Positions 619 through 60,031 of a stretch of 64,000 bases of DNA are shown one piece after another (position 1 is the stretch's first letter; every line of letters starts with the position of its first letter). The notes below the pieces were generated by a model. The model ran no database searches. It was not told the origin of the DNA and was given only the letters and a program-made list of their open reading frames with translations. The stretch lies in contig WHVD01000062.1 in NCBI GenBank assembly GCA_015178975.1, forward strand, positions 372,001 to 436,000, given 5' to 3'. The position numbers and the translations under genes were made by a program. The DNA is from Hysterangium stoloniferum (Eukaryota > Basidiomycota > Agaricomycetes > Hysterangiales > Hysterangiaceae).

Positions 619-926
619 TGTTAAATGTGACCTGTGACTTACTGTGACACGTGACACACACAAGTCTGAGGAAAATTGTTACTATTCAGGTCACTAACTA
701 CAAGCTTATATATGTTATACATCAGTAGGCTTGTCAGCTGTCAAAAGTGACAGCTGGTTGACAGCTGTCAGAAGTGACAGGTGATTGACAGCTTGAATGG
801 AAACTGACAGCTGATTGACAGCTGTCATGGGAAATGAACAGGGAATACTCTGGAATATGCTGGAAGCTTCTAGAAGGTTCTAGAAGGTTCCAGAAGGTCT
901 TGGAGACAGTGGAGGCAGTTTTAACA
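619..926 (-). mobile_element. solo LTR-C (heat-shock-element LTR) with 5-bp TSD GATCT
   Basis: Terminal TGTTAAA/TTTTAACA inverted ends enclose 308 bp flanked by the direct repeat GATCT (614-618 and 927-931). Orientation is set by the composite copies at 29194 and 36905, where the same LTR in this orientation's reverse precedes the primer binding site. In element orientation it holds an array of alternating GAA/TTC units, a cluster of TGACAGCTG motifs and a TATATAAG box in that order, which is the layout of a U3 promoter. The 3' flank is duplicated (see 918-1025). Confidence 0.9.
863..895. promoter_or_regulatory. heat shock element array in LTR-C
   Basis: Seven nGAAn units alternate in orientation with exact 5-bp phasing (GAA-TTC-GAA-TTC-GAA-TTC-GAA). 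This is the consensus site for trimeric heat shock factor HSF1. Two or more further degenerate units in the same phase precede it. The identical array recurs at 26143-26175, 29225-29257 and 37466-37498. Confidence 0.8.
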
Positions 927-4209: not shown

Positions 4210-4459
4210 TGTTAGAAATGGAAAATACAATATCTATATGTGACAGACTGTTATAAGACCCAGGTTTGCCATCAGTTATATAAGCTGTTATAAGAGCACA
4301 AGTTGGCATCATAAGTCCTTATATATATGTATATATAATCCATCATATAATACTAGACTATAGGTCCAGTAGCTCAGTGGTTAAGAGCACCTGCATATAA
4401 AGCCAGGAGGTCCTTGGTTCAATCCCAGGCTGGGTCAATTCTTTTCTATGCCTTTAACA
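4210..4459 (+). mobile_element. solo LTR-D (tRNA-bearing miniature LTR element), no TSD
   Basis: The 250-bp unit runs TGTTAGAAATGG to CCTTTAACA, matching LTR-D at 26920, 27239, 29579, 36905 and 59781. The flanking pentamers (CATAC and CAATG) do not match. To the right is gypsy gag DNA and to the left the minisatellite, so this copy probably marks a rearrangement junction rather than a simple insertion. Confidence 0.85.
4363..4437 (+). tRNA. tRNA-like Pol III gene inside LTR-D
   Basis: The 75 nt fold as a cloverleaf: acceptor GGTCCAG with CTGGGTC, D stem GCTC/GAGC, T stem CTTGG/CCAGG with loop TTCAATC, A box TAGCTCAGTGG and B box GGTTCAATCCC. A TTTT terminator follows at 4442-4445. The anticodon arm (CCTGC, then ATATAAA, then GCCAGG) has one extra C in its 3' strand. 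If that C is bulged, the anticodon reads AUA, otherwise it is undefined. It is probably not a translating tRNA but keeps promoter and terminator. Confidence 0.75.
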
Positions 4460-11103: not shown

Positions 11104-12135
11104 GTATGTGCACCTACACACTAGCACCTACACACCGGCACCTACGCACCCATGCACCGGCACCTACGCACCCACGCACCGGCACCTACGCACCTGCACC
11201 TCCGCACCCGCACCCACACACCTACACACCCGCACCCAATGCACCCACACCCAATGCACCCGCACCCAAAGCACCCGCACCCAACGCACCCGCACCCAAC
11301 GCACCCACACCAACGCACCTACGCACCTACCCACCCGCACCTACCCACCAACACACCTACCCACCAACGCACCTACGCACCCCACCTGCACCTCTGCACC
11401 CACACCCACGCACCCGCACCCACGCACCAACGCACCCGCACCCAACGCACCCGCACCCAAAGCACCCGCACCCAACGCACCCGCACCCAACGCACCCGCA
11501 CCCAACGCACCCGCACCCAATGCACCCGCACCCAATGCACCCGCACCCAATGCACCCGCACCCAACGCACCCGCACCCAACGCACCCGCACCCAACGCAC
11601 CCGCACCAACGCACCAACGCACCTACACACCTACACCAATGCACCCGCACCTGCGCACCTGCACCTCTGCCCCCACACCCACGCACCCACACCCATGCAC
11701 CTACACACCCGCACCAATGCACCCGCACCCAACGCACCCACACCCAACGCACCCACACCCAATGCACCCGCACCAACGCACCAATGCACCTCTGCACCCA
11801 CACCTACGCACCTGCACCTCTGCACCCACACCCACGCACCTACGCACCCTCACCAACACACCCACGCACCTGCACCAACACACCCACGTGTCCGCACCTA
11901 CGTATGTACCTACACACCCACACCAATGCACCTATGCACCCGCACCTATGCACCAATGCACCAGCGCACCTACGCACCCGCACCAGCGCACCTATGCACC
12001 AATGCACCCACACCAACGCACCCGCACTAATGCACCCGCACCAACGCACCTACGCACCCGCACCAATGCACCTACTCACCCGCACCAATGCACCCACACC
12101 CACACCAACGCACCCGCACCCACACCAACGCACAT
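11104..12135. repeat. 1-kb minisatellite, consensus 15-bp unit AACGCACCCGCACCC
   Basis: The array is a hierarchy of CACC(T/C/G)-based hexamers. Its core at about 11410-11610 is a nearly perfect run of the 15-bp unit, with T or A replacing C/G at fixed positions in some copies. Strand asymmetry is extreme: the plus strand is almost free of G outside the CG steps. Long open frames (about 290-410 codons) occur in all three plus frames, and open frames of up to about 150 codons on the minus strand, purely because the unit lacks stop codons. Confidence 0.95.
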
Positions 12136-12479
12136 TCGGGCGACCATATGAAAGTACGTCTAACCTATTGTTACGTCTAACCTATTGTGAAGACTTCAGA
12201 GAAGCTGGCTTCACCAATCTTGCGAAAGGGGCGCATTTGAGAGAGAGATTAGGAGATTGCTGTGGTTGTCTCAGGGAGTTCAGGCGGGTGAATTCTTCAA
12301 GGATGTTGTCCTCACGAGTTTGCAGGATCAAATAGTACCATAGAAGAGCAGGTACCTATCAAATGTGGTATTATACATAAATCAAATAATAGAAAATGCC
12401 TGAATGACCAAAATGACCGAGACAATCTCTGAGTATAGTTAGTCTTTAGAAAGGATCCGTCGACTGGCAAATTTTCACC
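12136..12479. other. leader region of the Crypton; no gene
   Basis: A 17-bp unit (ACGTCTAACCTATTGTT) is repeated in tandem at 12154-12186. No other feature is recognised. The left boundary of the Crypton probably lies in this stretch but Cryptons have no inverted repeats to show it. Confidence 0.35.
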
Positions 12480-14857
12480 ATGCCTGCAGCTCATAGAAAC
12501 AAATGCTCTGTAACTTCCAAGAAATCAAGTGACAGAAAAACAGCAACAGAAAAACTCTCATTAAAGACCCTCATATCTACTGCAGAGGCCTCGAAGAACA
12601 AACATGGGTTCGCTCAGAGTACTATCGGCTCCTATGAAAGAGCTCTCCGTCAAGCCCGAAAGTGGCTACAAGGGCAACTCGAAGCTGAGGCATCTTTCGA
12701 GTGTCCACCTGGCTGCCTAGATATAGCTGAACCCTCCGAAAGTTGGACACTGGAAGAATTGCGGAGCGCGTTTGAAAAGACACCAAACGGAGCTTCACCT
12801 GCAGCCTTGACGCTGTTCATAGCTACGAGATGTTTCACAAAGAGTTTCAATGGGAAGGAATCAAAGAAGGGGATTGCAGAACAAACTCATGCAGCTTGGA
12901 AGAAGTTCTGGGATAATTCGTGAGTGCTTTGGGAGTTGTCTTTCTGGGAAATTGGTTGATCACACAGCATTTGAAATAAATTTGCAGGGATCCAAATGGA
13001 TTATATCGTGGGCAATGGCATTGGGACCCAGAAAAGAAAATTGCAAGAGGGAATCCAGCACATGCCCCTGAGGTCAGAGAGATTGTCAATGCTGTAATTG
13101 CTAGAGATGCCGCTCTAGGGGAATGGCAGCATTCTGCAGCAATGTCAAAGGAATATATGGACCGTATAATGGCTTGGTCTGAACAGGAATGCCCACAAGA
13201 AGTGCTTTCTTCAATCATACCCTCCTTAAACCATTTTGTGGAAGTGCGACTCAAAGTGACAAAGCACCTATTGATGCGAGCTTTTGCTTCCAGCGGTTGG
13301 ACACTCTGGACAAGGTAGGTGGCACCACCAATTGTTATATATACACATACATTCTTACTAGTGTGCAGGAACTTTGAACTTGCGAAACTCCGAGCCAAAC
13401 ACTATAAGCAGCGCATGTGATCACAGGATGAGTATCAGTGGGAATACGACGAATGTCACCTTGAGCAGCGAAAAGGCTGGCAACATCAAATGAGTCGAGA
13501 GGGTGATCTTGAGAGTATGTCCTTTTTGATAATTTAATTAATCTAATCAAATTGATACATACATAGTTGTTCTATCCAGGCCATAAATACGAAATTCATC
13601 CGCAACCAGAGATGCCTTCAGTAGACATGCATTTCCACATGAATATTTGGATGAACTTTCTCAAAGCTTTCGTATATGGTCGTGAACTGGAGCCAAATGA
13701 TTTTATATTTCCGAGTGTAACTTCAACGGGCACTGTACAGCCTGAGGTGCCCATATCTCACAATACAATCCAAAAGTGGCTTGACGAGTTTGCGGAAGGT
13801 GCCAATATAGAGTTGGGTACCACCCGATTAATGACTCACTGCTTTCGTCGAGGTGGTGCACAGTATAGATTCATGTATGCACCAATCAGCAAACGCTGGA
13901 GTCTCACAACAATCCGCTGGTGGGGTGGATGGGCTCAGGGCGAACACATAAGTATCTTACAATGTATCCTTTCCTTATCAGTGGTTTATTTATTTATTAA
14001 ATTATACATATATTATATGTGTATAACAACAGCAAGATACGTTGATTCGATACTTACTGGATGAACTTTACCACTACGAGGACGGTCACGGGGATGCATT
14101 ACATCCTATAAAGTCTGAGAGAAGCACATCCCTCCTCAATGAGAGTGGCAGTCTGCAAGTGCCCACCGTTGCATCCATGACACAGATTCTCAAGGCGGGA
14201 CTTGATGAATTTGCCCAAAATTTCCAGGCAACAACATGTCATAGTCATAGATGCCCGAGTGCAACTTGTGACGGGGCAGCGCACCATGGGGAGCGGCACA
14301 CGTGCAGTTCGACAATGCCATCTTCCACTGGCATTCAACCGGCGGTGTCGAGATCACAGTGGGAAGTGAATGGTGGCAGTTCTTCGCAGAGCCCAGATGA
14401 GCCAGATGTGTTTTTGCGCATCCCTAAAATCATAAAGCCGAGAAAGGACTGTCTGGATGTGCCACCCGGATGGAGACAAGTGGTGGATCACTGGTTGAAA
14501 GGTGACCCGAGTGTCAAGAACTCACCTCCACTCAAAGACTGGAATCAAAAATGGATAAAAGGCAGATATAAGAAAATGTACGGACAGGTGTACTATCAGC
14601 GCAAACTTGTCGCGACTGAGTTCCTTGAAAGGTATGTTTCGGAAAAAAAAAAAAGGAAAAGAGGCTCAAATGTTAACAACATGATATTTTCCCCCAAGTT
14701 TAAGGGTGACGAAGCTGCATTTCGTCAGGCCTGGCCTGAAGCCATGGAAGGATTCACGGCATTATTTAATGCAATTCAACGTGACCGGAAGGCTAAGGGT
14801 CTCTCCAAGCCACGAAACAGCAAGTACCGCTCTCTGGAATCAAGCGCAATAGTCTAA
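12480..14857 (+). pseudogene. Crypton-type tyrosine recombinase, five exons, one in-frame stop
   Basis: I propose exons 12480-12919, 12988-13314, 13369-13514, 13580-13951 and 14037-14857, which give one reading frame of about 700 residues. Exon 4 carries the recombinase core motif H-x-x-R in THCFRRGGAQ, then RWWGGWAQGE. Exon 5 opens with LIRYLLDEL, whose Tyr is the expected nucleophile. The C-terminal part (PPGWRQVVDHWLKG to QRKLVATEFLERY) looks like the GCR1_C-type DNA-binding domain known in fungal Cryptons. A Cys/His-rich spacer lies between. Introns are 52-85 nt; the last acceptor is AAG, so that junction is less sure. TGA at 13418-13420 interrupts exon 3. Apart from this one stop the frame is open, suggesting recent inactivation. 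The protein would integrate and excise element DNA by strand exchange. Confidence 0.75.
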
Positions 14858-25887: not shown

Positions 25888-26206
25888 TGTTAAAAGTGAC
25901 CTGTGACTTACTGTGACACGTGACACACACAAGTCTGAGGAAAGTTGTTACTATTCAGGTCACTAACTACAAGCTTATATATGTTATACATCAGTAGGCT
26001 TGTCAGCTGTCATAAGTGACAGCTGGTTGACAGCTGGTTGACAGCTGTCATAAGTGACAGCTGATTGACAGCTTGAATGGAAACTGACAGCTGATTGACA
26101 GCTGTCATGGGAAATGAACTGGGAATACCCTGGAACATGCTGGAAGCTTCTAGAAGGTTCTAGAAGGTTCCAGAAGGTTTTGGAGACAGTGGAGGCAGTT
26201 TTAACA
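25888..26206 (-). mobile_element. LTR-C at a recombination junction, no TSD
   Basis: 319 bp LTR-C with the heat shock array at 26143-26175. The left neighbour is LTR-A and the right neighbour the tail of LTR-B; the flanking pentamers CTTTG and ATTCA differ. Two LTR-C copies, one in the A2 5' LTR and one in a solo LTR-B inserted in gag, recombined and deleted what lay between. That is the simplest reading. Confidence 0.85.
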
Positions 26207-26383: not shown

Positions 26384-27074
26384 CCGTGAGCATCATACTG
26401 AATTCAGTCAATCTCATGGGTCGTTTCTTTGGGGCATTGTGGAAGGATTGCTTGGAACTCGCTGGCGTGAATCCTTGGCCTTAGAATGGGAAGCCATGAA
26501 ATTTCGACAAGCTGGTCACAATCGTGAGACACCCGTTCACTATATACAGCGGAGAGTTAAACTCTATCGTTTTCTGTATGGGTTCCACCAAGACAGAGGG
26601 GATGAAACACGCAGACTCATCCTCACGTTGCCTACGGAATGGCTCTACCTTCTTCAAGGACAACCCATCGATGACATCATGAGTTTGCAGACTTATGCTA
26701 ATAACCTGCAAGAAGCTCTGATTAACACTTGGGTCCAAACACACCGGGAACGTTACAGGTTCCAGAAACCACACGTAATGTTATCAGAGGGTCAGGGATT
26801 GGATTTTAGGGCCACCGATGACCTCTCTTCACCTAACCATACTCTCATCAGTGAGACTAACGAGAGAGGCTTGACGAGAAGGATCGTCCCTGACACCGCT
26901 AACCCAACGCAGGGAAAGCTGTTAGAAATGGGAAAAATACAATATCTATATGTGACAGACTGTTATAAGACCCAGGTTTGCCATCAGTTATATAAACTGT
27001 TATAAGAGCACAAGTTGGCAACATAAGTCCTTATATATATGTATATATAATCCATCATATAATACTAGACTATA

Positions 27075-27149
27075 GGTCCAGTAGCTCAGTGGTTAAGAGC
27101 ACCTGCATATAAAGCCAGGAGGTCATTGGTTCAATCCCAGGCTGGATCA
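27075..27149 (+). tRNA. tRNA-like Pol III gene in 5' LTR-D of the D-D element
   Basis: Same cloverleaf, A box and B box as at 4363. The acceptor 3' strand is CTGGATC, which turns a T-G wobble into a T-A pair. The first T-stem pair is lost (ATTGG). TTTT follows within 8 nt. Confidence 0.7.
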
Positions 27150-27392
27150 ATTCTTTTCTATGCCTTTAACAGGTTATGGCCCCCATTCAGCTTCATCTGC
27201 TGCGTAGGGTATAGACTAGATATTGATTTCAGGGGAAGTGTTAGAAATGGGAAAATACAATATCTATATGTGACAGACTGTTATAAGACCCAGGTTTGCC
27301 ATCAGTTATATAAACTGTTATAAGAGCACAAGTTGGCATCATAAGTCCTTATATATATGTATATATAATCCATCATATAATACTAGACTATA

Positions 27393-27467
27393 GGTCCAGT
27401 AGCTCAGTGGTTAAGAGCACCTGCATATAAAGCCAGGAAGTCCTTGGTTCAATCCCAGGCTGGGTCA
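27393..27467 (+). tRNA. tRNA-like Pol III gene in 3' LTR-D of the D-D element
   Basis: 75 nt identical in plan to the copy at 4363 with one change in the variable arm (GAAGTC). Acceptor, D and T stems are intact. The extra C in the anticodon arm is retained, and a TTTT terminator follows. Confidence 0.75.
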
Positions 27468-29224
27468 ATTCTTTTCTATGCCTTTAACAAAAGCGTCACG
27501 GAAAAATGTTCTTTGAGAGGAGTAACAAGAAGAGCTCAGTCAAACCCACCAAGGAATGTTGGATATGTGGAAGTCTGGAGCATTTCAAGATAGATTGCCC
27601 TCATGCTGGCAAGATGTCTCATTATGTCTCTATCAACAAATGCTCTGCACAGGATATGTCAGAGGAAACTGAGGAGCACAGGTTATATGAGGCAGTTCAT
27701 GGACTATCTATACAAGGACAAGTAAATAGCTCTGATGATGAATTGACTATTGTTCCCATTTATGCACCCCGAGTCAGAGACGATTTAGTAAGGGAGGAAA
27801 ATCGAATGACTGGCGAAACTCTTCTGTCTGAGATCTACGTATCCATACTCGCTACAGATCCCTTTGAAAAGGGAGATTGGTTGAGTGCACACCGGCAGGA
27901 CCTTGAGGGCCTGACCAAGAACCACTGTCAGACTCAGGGTTATCACGAGCAAATCGGCTCGGACTCGCTCTGTTCACCTGGAGCTGACATTGACACATTC
28001 CCGTTCGATCCTGGAAACCCCCCCGACTTACTACCGTACAATGACTCAGATTCAGAGGACAGTAACAGCGATTTGGCATTGGATTCCCCTTTGAAACATA
28101 TTCCTTGTCGAAGTGAGCGCAGGAACGTAAGCTTGTCCCTGCACAAGGAAAGCAGGAGACCTAGAATTCAATACCCTCGCCCCAGTCGACTGATGAAGGA
28201 GGATACTACGATCCTTTATTGAAAACGGGACCCCCCCAGTGGTTACTCTAGCATAGGAGTTGCAGCGCTCCACGTTTTCGGTCATGTAGGAACTCCCAAT
28301 TCGCCCAAACACGTTAAAGTCAGAATGGACATGGGAGCGGATCTTTCCCTCATATCGGAGGAATTCTACAAAGGGCTGCAGGGCCAGTATAAGTTGAAGC
28401 AGGGACTCAAGTTATGTCTAATCCAGCTCACGGGTAACGCTAAGGTCATAGGATATGTTAATATTCCTATTTACCTGGAGGACGACAGTGGCATTTTATT
28501 GAAGTTCGCGGCGGAAACTTATGTTGTTAGAGGAATGATGGTGCCAATTCTCTTAGGAGAAGATTTCCACGTTAACTACAAAATTGGTACCCTAAGAGAT
28601 CAGCTGTTGGGATCTAGACTTATTCTCCCGGGATGACAGGGTTTTATTCCAGCCAGTTCTTCCAAGGAACCCCAACATCTGACTTTCACCGTCAACAAGG
28701 CCCCTTTCGGGAAACATCTGAAGGAGCAACCCAAGCTTACCTCTCTTCCTGATAAAGGTGTGCATACTGAAAGAGTCACGCGAGTCTTGGAAGACTGCAC
28801 TATTGATCCGGAGTCAGCCAGACTAGTGCCTATTTTTGTCGAGGACCTAATGGGCGAGGAGTGGATCGTCGAAGGAATCATATTACAAAATGAGGACGGT
28901 TCCATATTAGCCACCCCGATCATGGCAATTTCGAGGAATAGCGCGTCTGTACCCTTGGCCAATCCGTTGTTAACCCCTAAGATTATCCGACAGGGGGAGA
29001 CAATTGGGATAATTTACGACCCTGCTCATTGGGCTCACAAGCCCAGGTCACTTAAGGAGAAGGATTTAATGGCAGCCGGTGCGACCAAGATTGCACACCT
29101 TATCGAAAGTCTCTCTCAACTGGAGGAGGACCGTCAATCCACCTCAGAAAGGAGGCCTAAGCCACCTGTCGAACCAGAGATTGCAGATGATTTTGTTAAA
29201 ACTGCCTCCACTGTCTCCAAAACC

Positions 29225-29257
29225 TTCTGGAACCTTCTAGAACCTTCTAGAAGCTTC
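29225..29257. promoter_or_regulatory. heat shock element array in LTR-C of the composite element
   Basis: Seven phased units TTC-GAA-TTC-GAA-TTC-GAA-TTC, about 30 bp into the LTR in element orientation and about 150 bp upstream of the TATATAAGC box at 29420. Confidence 0.8.
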
Positions 29258-29732
29258 CAGCATGTTCCAGGGTATTCCCAGTTCATTTCCCATGACAGCT
29301 GTCAATCAGCTGTCAGTTTCCATTCAAGCTGTCAATCAGCTGTCACTTATGACAGCTGTCAACCAGCTGTCAACCAGCTGTCACTTACGACAGCTGACAA
29401 GCCTACTGATGTATAACATATATAAGCTTGTAGTTAGTGACCTGAATAGTAACAACTTTCCTCAGACTTGTGTGTGTCACGTGTCACAGTAAGTCACAGG
29501 TCACATTTAACAGGTTATGGGCCCCGTGAGCTTGGTGCGCTGCATAGGGTATAGATTAGATATTGATTTCAGGGGAAGTGTTAGAAATGGGAAAATACAA
29601 TATCTATATATGACAAACTGTTATAAGACCCAGGTTTGCCATCAGTTATATAAACTGTTATAAGAGCACAAGTTGGCATCACAAGTCCATATATATATGT
29701 ATATATAATCCATCATATAATACTAGACTATA

Positions 29733-29807
29733 GGTCCAGTAGCTCAGTGGTTAAGAGCACCTGCATATAAAGCCAGGAGGTCCTTGGTTCAATCCCAGGC
29801 TGGGTCA
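29733..29807 (+). tRNA. tRNA-like Pol III gene in LTR-D of the composite element
   Basis: Identical to the 4363 copy over the 75 nt as far as read by eye. All three stems outside the anticodon arm are intact, and TTTT lies 4 nt downstream. Confidence 0.75.
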
Positions 29808-30440
29808 ATTCTTTTCTATGCCTTTAACAGATTTCGAACCGCCTGGTCCTAAGATGGCCGCGGTGGCTGATAATGAGAAGCTGGCCTCAGAGGATCTCCA
29901 CAAGCTGGTCAATTTGGGACCAGATATACCAATGGAAATTCTGCCACGTCTCAGATCAGTTTTGACTGAGAACGTTAAGGCTTTCGGAGTCGACAGACGG
30001 TTAGGGCAAGTGGAATGCAGAGTCCCTATCCCCTTGAAAGAAGGTGCCCAGCCCACCTCCATGCCTATGTTCCCCTCTTCCCCTGCCAATAGAAGAGTTA
30101 TAGATGAGCAAATGGATACCTGGTTCAAGCAGGGTGTCATCGAGCCATCTAAAAGCCCCTGGGGGGCACCAGCCTTCGTAGTTTATCGCAATGGTAAACC
30201 ACGGGTGGTCATTAACTATCGGAAACTCAATCATCTCACGGTTCCAGATGAATTCCCTTTACCACGTCAATCAGAGATCATGCAAGTGCTATCGGGGTCA
30301 AACATCCTCTCTTCTTTTGACGCGTTAGCTGGATTTACCCAATTAGAAATGTTAGAGGACGATAAGCCCAAAACAGCCTTCAGATCTCACAGAGGGCTGT
30401 GGCGATTTAAAAGGATGCCATTCGGGCTTAGAAATGGTCC

Positions 30441-34782: not shown

Positions 34783-36904
34783 GTACACGTAAATTCACAT
34801 AAATTTTCTTTATCTTTCATACCACGTCCTTCACCTATCTACAGCCCTTCCCTCTACCTTCAACTTCACCACTTTATTGTGCTACAATGCTCCCATTCCA
34901 ACAAAACAAGCAAGTCCTCCCTAAGTTCAAAAAGGTCCCGTGGGCCCTGACAGCCAGTATATCCACGACCGGCGGGGGATTCATCACCCGCATGCCTCGT
35001 ACAGACAATGTCAAGAGCAATCGGAGTACCCAAGAACCAACCCCCCTGTCAACTTTCTCCTTTGGTGCTGAGCTGAGGGGGAATACCGGTATGGATTGGA
35101 GTAAGCCGTTAGGGCCCTCCTTCAGACTGTCATCAGAGGAAGGCGCTGCTACTATGCGGAGGCAGGAAACGTTTATGGAAGAACACAACGCAAGGAGGCA
35201 TACCTGCAAAAGAGAAAGGCGCACTGAGTATAGAAGTCAACAGGAGGCGAGGGGAGCAAGAGAAGGAGTCCCCTCCAAGCGACAGCGGCATGAGGACAGA
35301 GCACGATTCGGAAGCAGAGCTTCCGCGCCGATCCTTCCCCCCCCGGAGAGAAATGGGCCGACTTCACGGAGACTGATGATAGCGAGGGTGGGACGCCTTG
35401 CATTAGGACAACAGGAACCAAGAGCTGGAAGGAAAAGGAGGGTACCATCTTTTGAGACTGGGAACTACTCCGACGTATTAAGTTGCGATGAATAATCCTT
35501 ACCCGGGGGGATGGTCAAGTGCTGCCCCCACAAGAAAAGGGATATTGTAGGGGACCAATCGATTTTTCCTCAGATGAGGATGAGGAGGAAGACGAGAATA
35601 GGAATGATGCGTACAGCATCTGATATCTGGGAGAGGATTGCCACGAAAGGTTCCTCCTCCCATCGAAAGTTCGCTTCGTAACCAGCGACCCCAACCAACG
35701 ACAAATGTGGAAACCATCATCCAAAGTATGGAGGGGTCATCGCCCTAGTCAACCGTCACAGGAACGTGAACCTTCCACGATTCCAGTCCCACACCTTTCG
35801 CCAACGTCGAGGCCCCCTCCCATCCTCCACCCAGCACACACTCCCTCAGCCCCGATTCTAACGCCTCGTCTACCTCCCTCCCAAAAAGCTGTACCGGTCC
35901 CTATCCCACTTAGGACGTCAAGGCCCCCTCCCATCCTCCACCCGGCACACACTCCCTCAGCCCAACGTGAACCTTCCCCGATTCCAGTCCCATGCCTTTC
36001 GCCAACATTGAAGCCCCCTCCCATCCTCCACCCGGCACACACTCCCTCAGCCCCGATTCTGGCACCTCGTCTCCCTCCCTCCCCAAAAGCTGTACTGGTC
36101 CCGACCCCACTTCCACCATCACTGGGTATCCCTCCCAACTCTCTGTATTCATATTGCGTGTCCTTAGGTAGCCCTATCCACGACCTTCCACTAGAGCGAA
36201 TGGATGTCGATTTGGACCCTTTTACACTGGACGTCATTGTTCCCATGACAAGTGGAAAGGCGAAGGAGATACAGAAGGCCACCACTCCTCTCCGAGAACG
36301 ATCCCCTATTCCCGTCCCTGACAGCCCACTTCCCCCCACTGAGCTCATCTCCACCACTTTCTGGATGCGAGTAGCTGTCAACTACCTTTCCGAACAGTTT
36401 CCTGTCAGAAGGGTACTATCACAGCTAGTGCCGGTACTTCAGCAACCGGTCCTTCAAGGGAGCCTTAATGTTATGACCGGACAATCCCGCCGGACTCCGG
36501 GCACTAACCCATATGCCACCATGCGCTACAAGCACCAATCATCTGTTTATAGGATTTCCTGCCCCGACTCCGTTACGTCAAGACTAGTTATGTTCAACCT
36601 CATTACGACACATATCAGTCACCAGACTTCCCCCAGACTCCATCTCTGTCTATGTCCGTCTTCATCCCACACATCAGTCACCGGACCCCACTTAGAATCC
36701 CGTCACTGCTCTAATCGAGCCCCATTCCCGTTTTAGTCAAATGCCCTGTCATGATTTAGGACTCCGCTCCTGCTCCGTTTCCCGTTATGGGTTATGCTTT
36801 GTCACAATTCGGACTCCACTCCGTTCCGTTCTGTTCCTAACACCAATTTGGTGTTTACTATTCCCGTTTTATGTTTTGTTAGTTTCGTTTTGTTATTACT
36901 GGAT

Positions 36905-37529
36905 TGTTAAAGGCATAGAAAAGAATTGACCCAGCCTGGGATTGAACCAAGGACCTCCTGGCTTTATATGCAGGTGCTCTTAACCACTGAGCTACTGGAC
37001 CTATAGTCTAGTATTATATGATGGATTATATATACATATATATAAGGACTTATGTTGCCAACTTGTGCTCTTGTAACAGTTTATATAACTGATGGCAAAC
37101 CTGGGTCTTATAACAGTCTGTCACATATAGATATTGTATTTTCCCATTTCTAACACTTCCCCTGAAATCAATATCTAGTCTATACCCTATGCAGCGCACC
37201 AAGCTCATGGGGCCCATAACCTATTAAATGTGACCTGTGACTTACTGTGACACGTGACACACACAAGTCTGAGGAAATTTGTTACTATTCAGGTCACTAA
37301 CTACAAGCTTATATATGTTATACATCAGTAGGCTTGTCAGCTGTCAAAAGTGACAGCTGGTTGACAGCTGTCAGAAGTGACAGCTGATTGACAGCTTGAA
37401 TGGAAACTGACAGCTGATTGACAGCTGTCATGGGAAATGAACTGGAAATACTCTGGAACATGCTGGAAGCTTCTAGAAGGTTCTAGAAGGTTCCAGAAGG
37501 TCTTGGAGACAGTGGAGGCAGTTTTAACA
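36905..37529 (-). mobile_element. second composite miniature element C-int-D, TSD TGGAT
   Basis: Minus orientation: LTR-C 37529-37222 (first TG mutated to TA at the inner edge), internal 37221-37156 with the same primer site and purine tract, LTR-D 37155-36905. TGGAT flanks it at 36900-36904 and 37530-37534. The target differs from that of the copy at 29194, so it is an independent integration of the same unlike-ended element. Confidence 0.92.
36927..37001 (-). tRNA. tRNA-like Pol III gene in LTR-D (minus strand)
   Basis: 75 nt with intact acceptor, D and T stems, A and B boxes, and the extra C in the anticodon arm. The TTTT terminator is at the 36919-36924 side. Confidence 0.75.
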
Positions 37530-38507
37530 TGGATTTGGTATGTCATTCACTCCATGGTCTATATAAACTGGCAGATGTTGTACATACAATCCAGTCAGAA
37601 AATTAGCTTAGATTCCCCCCAGTAATCTAATAACATTTTCCACTCTAAAACCTTACTTGATTCACATCGCTCACACTAGTCGGAGCCCATGGGCTCCGGC
37701 GGATCTATCTCTCTCAACTATCTCGACTCACGACCCACGACCTCCGACTTACGACCCACGACCCCCGACTTATGACCTACGACCCATGAACCCTGCCCGG
37801 ATTCCCTGGGATCCCTGTCCATCTGTTTGAAATTGGACAACACGATCTAGCGAGGGCGCAGCCTATAAACTGAAGCCAAGTCCTACCGGATATCCCGCAG
37901 GTTTCTCCGGAAACCCGGCCTGTGTGTGTATCCTAACACTTAAGGGTTGTCGCGGTCTTGCTCTGTTGTCGGAGATAATGGAGGATTTCTATCTCTCCTT
38001 CGAGGATCCCACAGAGGGGAAGAACTTTGTGTGAGCAGCTCGGGAGATTAAACTCTCTATGTTCCGGCACATCATAGTGGAACCCCACCGTCTGCCCCCA
38101 GACTCAGCGAGTGCCCTCTCTATTGCTGGCTTCATAGATTTACTCGAGGCCCTCATCCTGACACCTCCCACAGAGACCACTACACAGCCACATGTTCCTG
38201 CCCCGCTACCCACGTCTTCATTTCCCCTCCCCAATGCTCCTCTTCTCATGCGGATTTCTGCTCTGCCGGTTAGTGTCTGTGCAGTCATTCATTGCAGAGA
38301 GAAAAGCCTACAGACAATGGGCCGACTCCTTGTACAGGGATTCTAGTGATTTGGCTCAGGCAAGAATAGCCGAGTCCTTCAGAGTAAAAAGGGAACGATG
38401 GGGAAACATCATTTTGGACCTTGGGGGATCCTCACAGGAAGCTTGGGGTGGCATCCCAGATGCTCTTCGACACCTTGTATAGCACATCCCTTCGAACTGG
38501 GGGGCAC

Positions 38508-44794: not shown

Positions 44795-46342
44795 TACCCT
44801 CGTCCCAGTCGACTGATGAAGGAGGATACTACGATCCTTTATCGAAAATGGGATCCTCCCAGTGGTTACTCTAGCATAGGAGTTGTAGTGCTCCATGTTT
44901 TCGGTCATGTAGGAACTCCCGATTCACCTGAACACGTTAAAGTTCGAATGGACACGGGAGCGGATCTTTCCCTTATATCAGAGGAATTCTACAAGGGGCT
45001 GCAGGGCATATATAAGTTGAAACAAGGACTCAAGTTGCGTCTAATCCAGCTCACGGGTAACGCTAAGGTTATCGGATATGTTAATATTCCTATTTACCTG
45101 GAGGACGACAGTGGAACGTTACTGAAGTTCACGACGGAAACTTATGTCGTTAGAGGAATGACGGTGCCAATTCTTTTAGGAGAGGATTTCCATATTAATT
45201 ACGAAATCGGTACTCTAAGAGATCAGCCGTTGGGATCTAGACTTATTCTCCCGGGACGGCAGGGTTTTATTCCAGCCAGTTCTTCTAAGGAACCCCAACC
45301 TTTGACCTTCAACGTCAATAAGGCCCCTTTCGGGAAGCACGAGAAGGAGCAACCCAAGCTCACCTCTCTCCCCGATAAAGGCGTGTGTACTGAAAGAGTC
45401 GCGCGAGCCTTGGAGGATTGCACTATCGATCCAGAGTCAGCCAGACTAGTGCCTATTTTTGTTGAAGATCTAAAGGGTGAGGAATGGATTGTTGAAGGAA
45501 TTGTATTGCAAAATGAGAACGGTTTGATATTAGCCACACCAATCACGGCAATTTCAAGGAATAGTGCGGCAGTACCCTTAGCCAATCCATCGCTAACTCC
45601 TAAGACTATCCGACGAGGGGAGACAATAGGGATAATTCATGACCCCGCTCGTTGGGCTCACAAGCCCAGGTCACTTGAGGAGAAAGGTTTAATGGCAGCA
45701 GGCGTGACCAAGATCGCACACCTTATCGAAAGTCTCTCTCAACTTGAGGAGGACCGTCAAGTCGCCTCAGAGAGGCCTAAGCCACCTGTTGAACCAGAGA
45801 TTGCGGACGATTTCGAACCGCCTGGTCCTAAGACGGCTGCAGTGACTGATAATGAGACATTTGCCTCAGAGGATCTTCACAAGCTAGTCAACTTGGGACC
45901 AGATATACCAATGGAGGTCCTGCCACGTCTCAGGTCAGTTTTGACTGAGAACGTTAAGGCTTTCGGAGTCGACGGACAGTTAGGGCAAGTGGAATGTAGA
46001 GTCCCTGTCCCCTTGAAAGAGGGTGCCCAGCCCATATCCATGCCTATGTTCCCTTCGTCCCCTGCCAATAGGAGAGTTATAGACGAGCAAATGGATACCT
46101 GGTTCGAACAGGGTGTCATTGAGCCATCTAAAAGTCCCTGGGGGGCGCCAGCCTTTGTAGTATATCACAATGGTAAACCACGGGTGGTCATCGACTATCA
46201 GAAACTTAATCATCTCACTGTTCCAGATGAATTCCCTTTACCACATCAATCAGAGATCATGCAAGTGCTGTCGGGATCAAATGTCCTTTCTTCTTTCGAC
46301 GTGCTAGCTGGGTTTACTCAATTAGAAATGTTGGAGGACGAT

Positions 46343-46985
46343 TGTGAAGAGTCGATAGATTCTGACCGTTCAATATACGAAGAATAGTGTTTATTCAACT
46401 ACTATTAGCAGGTATTGACCGTACAGTACAATACCGTAGATTACTAGACAAGCAGTACTAGTAAGAAGACACGCTATGCGTCACAAGAGCAACTGTACAG
46501 TTGCTCTTGACGGCTAGAATGAAAGAATGAAAGAGTTGACCTTCACGGTACAACTCGTAGCTAGATGTAAATAGATAATCAACGCGAAGCTGAATATCTA
46601 GAGTAAAGAGATGATAGCGTGAGTCGACTATAATGTCGACTAGCGCAAAGACCTTAGAGTGGAACTCAACCTTTGCGGTTCGAGTCCAAAGTATGTTAGT
46701 ATGCGAGAGAATACTACCTTTATAGGTAGTTGAGATGTTACCCTTGACACCTCTCGCTATTCGACGTCTGGGTCGTTTACGAGGTGGTGTCTGCTGGGTA
46801 AAAAGTGTCTCTCGTTTTGGCGCTGAGAGCGCCCATACGTATACACAAAGCTTCGAACTACAAAATAAAGGTATGCTCGAAATATAGAAAGAATGTAAAG
46901 AAAGAAAATAAAAGATAAATAATAAAGTACTATAATCCAACTATTATTCCTTAGTCCAATTATGCATATATGCATACCCTTTACA
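46343..46985 (-). mobile_element. solo LTR-A in A1 RT, TSD ACGAT
   Basis: 643 bp in antisense, flanked by ACGAT at 46338-46342 and 46986-46990. Confidence 0.93.
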
Positions 46986-59780: not shown

Positions 59781-60031
59781 TGTTAGAAATGGGAAAATAC
59801 AATATCTATATGTGACAGACTGTTATAAGACCCAGGTTTGCCATCAGTTATATAAACTGTTATAAGAGCACAAGTTGGCAACATAAGTCCTTATATATAT
59901 GTATATATAATCCATCATATAATACTAGACTATAGGTCCAGTAGCTCAGTGGTTAAGAGCACCTGCATATAAAGCCAGGAGGTCCTTGGTTCAACCCCAG
60001 GCTGGGTCAATTCTTTTCTATGCCTTTAACA
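59781..60031 (+). mobile_element. solo LTR-D in B ORF3, TSD GGTC(A/G)
   Basis: 251 bp TGTTAGAAATGGG to CCTTTAACA, flanked by GGTCA (59776-59780) and GGTCG (60032-60036), a TSD with one change. Removing it restores the ORF3 frame across the acidic block. Confidence 0.92.
59935..60009 (+). tRNA. tRNA-like Pol III gene in LTR-D
   Basis: 75 nt, same plan as at 4363; the T-loop reads TTCAACC instead of TTCAATC. All stems outside the anticodon arm pair. TTTT follows 4 nt later. Confidence 0.72.

Follow-up and report, generated by a model that had tools for sequence, protein, structure and literature searches.

The two ends of an LTR element are expected to be identical at birth, a property that is used to find and to date such elements. 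Du is said to have described LTR swapping in soybean in 2010. For Helenus TRIMs, the excerpted account infers the autonomous partner from similarity in primer site, duplication length and interior (TRIMp3; Kojima 2024, PMC10886601). Template-switching complexes in wheat, rice and maize have been attributed to abnormal reverse transcription (Sabot and Schulman 2007, PMC1950507). A general scheme of strand transfer is available for retroviruses (in excerpt, PMC3187697), and the excerpted work on HIV-1 describes a second transfer that in cell culture generally stays within one molecule, while recombinants led its authors to infer an intermolecular alternative (Cappy 2017, PMC5651808). The sections drawn on from a review of Ty3 (PMC5371799) give a different route for Ty1 and Ty3, wherein plus-strand transfer proceeds via R and U5 and the primer site copied from the tRNA is lost. 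Finally, LTR recombinants of Onsen in Arabidopsis are mostly ascribed, in the part of that report used here, to the first transfer, occurring in R and within one family (Sanchez 2017, PMC5668417).

A 64,000-nucleotide stretch of the Hysterangium stoloniferum genome (the window; contig WHVD01000062.1, positions 372,001 to 436,000) carries two insertions with unlike ends, LTR C on the left and LTR D on the right. A first-pass annotation had proposed that the copies at 29194-29829 (target duplication GATTT) and 36905-37529 (TGGAT) both consist of C, a 66-bp interior and D in the same order, and this is confirmed. Likewise, the empty site that it had proposed for the first copy is present, as a single-GATTT counterpart at 45803-45822. 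No insertion-free counterpart of the second copy was found within the window. The features are as follows, with coordinates given for the window.

29189..29193, + strand: target duplication GATTT, left of hybrid copy 1
29194..29512, + strand: LTR C (319 bp), left end of hybrid copy 1, autonomous-copia LTR type
29513..29526, + strand: primer-binding site GGTTATGGGCCCC together with G, 14 bases that the TRIM and copia interiors share; exchange point
29513..29578, + strand: TRIM interior of hybrid copy 1, type A, 66 bp, from primer site to purine tract
29570-29578, + strand: purine tract CAGGGGAAG, end of the interior of hybrid copy 1
29579..29829, + strand: LTR D (251 bp), right end of hybrid copy 1, TRIM LTR
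29733..29807, + strand: tRNA-like sequence within LTR D of hybrid copy 1 (Rfam tRNA, 48.6 bits; gathering score 29)
29830..29834, + strand: target duplication GATTT, right of hybrid copy 1
36900..36904, + strand: target duplication TGGAT, hybrid copy 2, first repeat
36905..37155, − strand: LTR D, right end of hybrid copy 2
37156..37221, − strand: TRIM interior of hybrid copy 2, type A
37222..37529, − strand: LTR C, 308-bp variant, left end of hybrid copy 2
37530..37534, + strand: target duplication TGGAT, hybrid copy 2, second repeat
45803..45822, + strand: insertion-free counterpart of the copy 1 site, with a single GATTT, in another copy of the surrounding repeat (3 mismatches to the query)
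26920..27489, + strand: ordinary TRIM, D-int-D, target duplication AAAGC, its two D not identical
619..926, − strand: solo LTR C, 308 bp, with a 5-bp duplication
25888..26206, − strand: solo LTR C, 319 bp, without a 5-bp duplication
4210..4459, + strand: solo LTR D, without a 5-bp duplication (3 mismatches)
59781..60031, + strand: solo LTR D, 5-bp duplication with 1 mismatch

The window also contains a perfect 54-bp tandem duplication at 918-1027, which overlaps the solo C (619-926) at its end, and a G+C-rich minisatellite of about 1 kb with GCACC-type units at 11110-12133. Open frames at 12450-14857 hold what we take to be a tyrosine recombinase-like motif. A Pfam search of the frames at 12450-12923, 13567-14064, 14027-14857 and 44795-46387 gave no matches.

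Judged by sequence, the element to which LTR C belongs is an autonomous Ty1/copia. A C-bounded copy (L061, target duplication ATCTT) carries an open stop-to-stop frame of 1417 codons in which Pfam places a copia-type gag, an integrase core and then RVT_2, which is the copia order. The integrase core (PF00665, at 539-638) is a weak match (32.3 bits, 0.3 below the cut-off) and RVT_2 lies at 929-1173. A second C-bounded copia copy, L062, is shorter and is flanked by ACACC. In a further variant, seen in L066-L069, about 615 bp are missing from the copia interior after position 281.

On the same basis, D belongs to a Helenus-like TRIM, whose LTR contains a tRNA-like sequence. The D-bounded element is short, roughly 570 bp, with two LTRs, a primer site, a purine tract and an interior of 66-67 bp that occurs as two main types, A and B. 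Its 5-bp target duplication is perfect in most single TRIMs tested and absent in several. All six ARAGORN matches in the window lie within a D, as predicted tRNA-Tyr(ATA) genes at 4363-4437, 27075-27149, 27393-27467, 29733-29807, 36927-37001 and 59935-60009, and thus the TRIM may inflate the number of tRNA genes annotated in this genome. An older D-int-D family of equal layout, about 82% identical, was also seen (L058, L143-L146); of its members, L058, L144 and L145 were tested and all three have duplications, with two of the three differing in their flanks.

The two LTRs have only TGTTA and TTTAACA in common, at their ends. Their best local alignment score is 9, compared with a mean of 10.1 and a maximum of 14 among 200 shuffles, so that C and D do not align, as the first-pass annotation had assumed, and divergence of one from the other is rejected. 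The possibility it raised, that a single element naturally has C on its left and D on its right, is likewise abandoned, because each bounds its own homotypic element: C bounds copia, and D bounds the TRIM, with 60 D|int versus 18 C|int heads. What the two elements do share is the first 14 interior bases, GGTTATGGGCCCCG. These contain the primer site, which we take to be complementary to initiator tRNA-Met, and within it GGTTATGGGCCC presumably matches the tRNA region that primes Helenus.

We counted junctions genome-wide in the 111-Mb assembly of this single genome (554 contigs) by pattern searches with up to 3 mismatches, which miss altered junctions on both sides. At left ends, where int and intC denote the TRIM and copia interiors, the counts are C|int 18 (17 by junction pattern, plus L016), D|int 60, C|intC 61 and D|intC 6. 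The D|int count includes four copies of the older family, one without an interior match and three from one triplicated segment. Right ends comprise 81 int|D and 73 intC|C junctions, and the same genome-wide searches (≤3 mismatches) found 0 int|C and 0 intC|D. Hybrid junctions are therefore 24 of 145 on the left versus 0 of 154 on the right, with a Fisher p value of ~1e-8, or 9e-9 without the older-family and duplicated copies and with the triplicated unit reduced to one, where both tests treat copies as independent. The reverse class, D-copia-C, was predicted first and then found; four of the six D|intC copies belong to the variant lacking ~615 bp. C-int-D is thus not confined to the two sites in the window, with 18 C|int heads and 16 whole-length matches across the genome. 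This count of arrangements, made with their target duplications as the first-pass annotation had advised, finds C-int-D and D-int-D present and int|C at 0.

The triplicated segment lies on contig C543, where one TRIM insertion recurs near 266.7, 272.1 and 277.5 kb at a spacing of 5,414 bp, each time in a C LTR; this is a segmental triplication of one 5.4-kb unit. The sole mismatch seen between a body and its right LTR is a stub (L070, on C88) in which C, the primer site and 10 bases of copia interior are joined to D, with an apparent 5-base match at the joint. Its structure suggests either a deletion or a jump at microhomology. No left ends from other LTR families with an equal primer site were found on TRIM or copia bodies: all 68 copia heads searched are C or D, and rows with other LTRs lead into other interiors, in a search that misses heads beyond the allowed mismatches. 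That these families supply no left ends argues for co-copied partners and against free recombination at the primer site.

Fourteen of the 18 C|int units stand alone and four are in arrays. Perfect 5-bp target duplications flank 10 of the 14 standalone C-int-D copies, with ten different sequences: L001 GATTT, L002 AAAGA, L003 TTACA, L004 ACGCG, L005 ATCCA, L007 CCTGG, L011 CTGTC, L015 TTTAT, L016 CAATC and L017 GGTTG. Those of L015 and L017 were read by eye, and in L015 the duplication lies directly beyond terminal LTR bases TTTAATA. Of the 13 standalone copies checked, the other three (L006, L009 and L013) show no duplication; the fourteenth is an old copy (C441:338594) that seems to have received the insertion of L011. 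In L017 and L033 (C543:297034-297095), the left C has shrunk to about 50 bp and GGTTG repeats flank the hybrid. Because the target duplications differ from copy to copy, segmental duplication is rejected for the hybrids that bear them, contrary to the first-pass annotation's refuting case of flanking DNA shared by all copies.

Among the standalone D-copia-C copies, one of three has a duplication (L065, AGAGA), and L064 and L067 have none. Mixed arrays take the forms C-int-D-copia-C (L068 and L069), D-copia-C-int-D (L066) and copia-C-int-D (L010). A single duplication encloses the whole array in two of these four (L066, TTTTT; L068, ATCAC); L069 has none, and the far end of L010 falls outside the check. 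Arrays built of D only also occur with perfect outer duplications, containing three (L126), four (L055), five (L137) or seven (L132) D, and the interiors of L055 run A-B-A, with both types within one array. The D-only array L140 and the truncated L134 are without a perfect outer duplication.

The hybrids are not one lineage. A tree of 79 C LTRs was built with 16 of the 18 hybrid C (leaving out the shrunken L017 and the truncated C441:338594) and 63 non-hybrids, namely 50 of the 61 copia left LTRs, five D-copia-C right LTRs and eight further C. The 16 hybrids require 15 label changes in this tree, compared with a shuffled mean of 13.9, and 447 of 500 shuffles were as low. Similarly, in an int-D tree of 64 units (17 of the 18 hybrids and 47 TRIM units), the 17 hybrids require 16 label changes, with a shuffled mean of 14.7, and four sets of identical rows contain both hybrid and ordinary units. 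Both trees are poorly resolved, and therefore our claim is limited to the lack of hybrid clustering and does not extend to exact parentage. Moreover, C lengths of 308, 319, 338 and 349 among the hybrids are each paired with both interior types, and L006 carries a C identical to the one on the right of L067, a reverse hybrid. The lack of clustering in the LTR trees points to repeated origin. The first-pass annotation had held that the hybrid either reproduces itself or arises repeatedly; the scatter supports the latter, and C-int-D probably does not reproduce as a unit and arises anew each time.

These structures are best explained, with a probability of roughly 0.78, as the recurrent product of an intermolecular plus-strand (second) transfer via the shared primer site, followed by normal integration. 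The idea that integrase accepts a product of template switching between two families had already been suggested, and remains the best reading in a refined form, in which only the left LTR switches and does so at the primer site. Each module of primer site, body and own right LTR corresponds to one minus-strand DNA, and each left LTR corresponds to one plus-strand strong-stop DNA; left caps exchange and modules do not. It is this left-only exchange at the primer-binding site, in both directions, that points to intermolecular transfer of plus-strand strong-stop DNA. Specifically, copia RNA (C-gag-pol-C) and TRIM RNA (D-int-D) would be copied together, presumably after co-packaging, with the TRIM using the copia enzymes. 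The TRIM minus-strand DNA would have the form PBS-int-PPT-D, ending at the primer site and including its own right LTR. A plus-strand strong-stop DNA templated by copia, consisting of a complete C and a copy of the primer site, would then anneal to this minus strand at the shared site, and extension would yield C-PBS-int-D. If integrase accepts the outer ends of this molecule as usual, a 5-bp target duplication would result. The opposite direction of the same transfer would generate D-copia-C, and its repetition on the growing plus strand could build arrays such as C-int-D-copia-C.

Several features bear on this reading. The left C of hybrids is normally a complete LTR, U3 included. Genomic RNA of retrotransposons has no U3 at its 5′ end, and thus a complete left C is hard to derive from RNA. 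The right LTR should not be exchangeable at the second transfer because it is part of the minus strand, and with no R in common, C and D would not be expected to undergo a first, R-mediated transfer. On the other side, the transfer route that the Ty3 review gives for Ty1 and Ty3 conflicts with the primer-site route needed here. The copies without target duplications and the L070 stub also make us slightly less confident of the explanation by plus-strand transfer.

Other origins fare less well. If arrays such as copia-C-int-D and D-copia-C-int-D formed first, by serial plus-strand joining, recombination between C LTRs could then leave C-int-D; copia-C-int-D is indeed present in L010 and L066, and solo LTRs attest to LTR recombination. 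However, the arrays require the same C|int joint, so that this route merely adds one step, and with standalone copies outnumbering array copies by 14 to 4 we consider it improbable. At least ten clean insertions might instead be taken to mean that C-int-D replicates itself, one ancestral hybrid having been transcribed from C, packaged and reinserted with its unlike ends kept. We find this quite improbable, as R of C and R of D offer no common sequence for the first transfer, standard reverse transcription yields the same LTR at both ends, the hybrids are scattered over parental C and D lineages, and D-copia-C would require a second such ancestor.

An exchange at the RNA level, in which the minus strand being made on TRIM RNA switches at the primer site to a read-through copia RNA holding a whole C, would account for both the full-length left C and the primer-site joint. 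Synthesis would nevertheless continue into flanking DNA, and there would be no reason for the left terminus to be exactly TGTT next to a clean target duplication, which makes such a switch very improbable. Recombination or gene conversion in the chromosome, between a resident copia and a TRIM at the 13-14-bp primer site common to both, is the least credible origin for the class, because crossing over would bring together two different flanks and lose the duplication, yet 10 of 14 standalone C-int-D copies keep it, and because further LTR families that have this primer site take no part. It could explain some of the copies that lack duplications; those that bear them contradict it.

Ordinary TRIM copies also carry signs of mixed parentage. 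In 17 of 30 single TRIMs (a set that left out arrays and older-family, truncated and duplicate copies), the left and right D differ at common family polymorphisms, and they do so in 11 of the 21 with perfect duplications. Nine of the 18 TRIMs without a private difference differ at shared sites, and all nine have duplications. In L133 and L139, each LTR is an exact match to a different other copy. With a chance identity of 0.093 allowed for, the estimated share of left D from another parent is ~62% (bootstrap 44-81%), or 58% (37-84%) among the 21 TRIMs with perfect duplications. From such sequence comparisons, the two LTRs may stem from different parents in about 60% of ordinary TRIM copies, and gene conversion after insertion could add to the differences. 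Interior type shows no clear linkage to D haplotype on either the left or the right side.

The copia elements give a mixed picture in a small sample, with clear mixed parentage in one of eight left/right LTR pairs. Two pairs are identical and two differ by one gap alone. The L062 pair has two private changes, and that of L099 has four shared polymorphisms and none private. The pairs of L076 and L063 are not cleanly readable (an untrimmed end and a complex locus). We tentatively propose, at somewhat less than even odds, that plus-strand transfer is mainly intermolecular in this copia/Helenus pair and that strong-stop DNAs form a shared pool of interchangeable left caps, such that most TRIM insertions, even those that look ordinary, would have LTRs from two parents and a C cap would give the TRIM body a copia promoter. 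If so, transfer would run via the primer site, unlike in the Ty1/Ty3 model as reviewed.

The hybrid insertions break the rule of identical ends, and about half of the ordinary TRIMs examined seem to do so as well. Thus, LTR divergence is a poor clock in this TRIM family. In the hybrids there is physical evidence for the joint copying of one TRIM and one copia element, and they so point to the autonomous partner of a Helenus-type TRIM. Unrelated LTRs on a common primer site also provide an unambiguous read-out, by which second strand transfer within versus between molecules, and the primer-site route, can be read from genome sequence alone.

Searches of a limited body of literature, at the level of titles and abstract openings, found no report of unlike-ended LTR elements as a recurrent class or of a two-directional, left-only class. 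In the excerpted description of tandem LTR elements in plants (2025, PMC11899658), LTRs and interiors alternate within one target duplication, as they do here; each of those arrays has one element type, and the mechanism is left between recombination and array insertion. On our reading, copies of an LTR family would recombine during reverse transcription here as they do in the Onsen account as excerpted (PMC5668417). The complexes of Sabot and Schulman also resemble those described here, in being LTR-sharing arrays with a single target duplication enclosing all, but their outer LTRs are highly similar and the switch is placed between R regions (PMC1950507), whereas here the joint falls at the primer site and an insertion can have unrelated LTRs at its two ends. 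L066 has D at both ends, but L001-L005 and others have unrelated outer LTRs.

D-int-D is like Helenus in being short and non-coding, with a tRNA-like sequence in its LTR, 5-bp duplications and a probable copia partner, and its primer site is of the kind reported for fungal Helenus (PMC10886601, in the sections drawn on). Those sections (PMC10886601) report no left-LTR exchange with the partner, which is inferred here from physical hybrids. What would be expected of plus-strand transfer is found in the hybrids, with the exception of L070: a foreign left LTR, a body and right LTR from one parent, and a joint at the primer site, in both directions. A transfer mediated by the primer site follows the retroviral scheme, unlike the Ty1/Ty3 model in the reviewed sections (PMC5371799). 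The step proposed here, in which a plus strand moves from one molecule to another at the primer site, is also the one considered for HIV-1 (PMC5651808, as excerpted). For HIV-1 it is inferred indirectly from breakpoints among related genomes (PMC5651808), whereas in this fungus unrelated LTRs mark the transfer directly, and it is apparently common.
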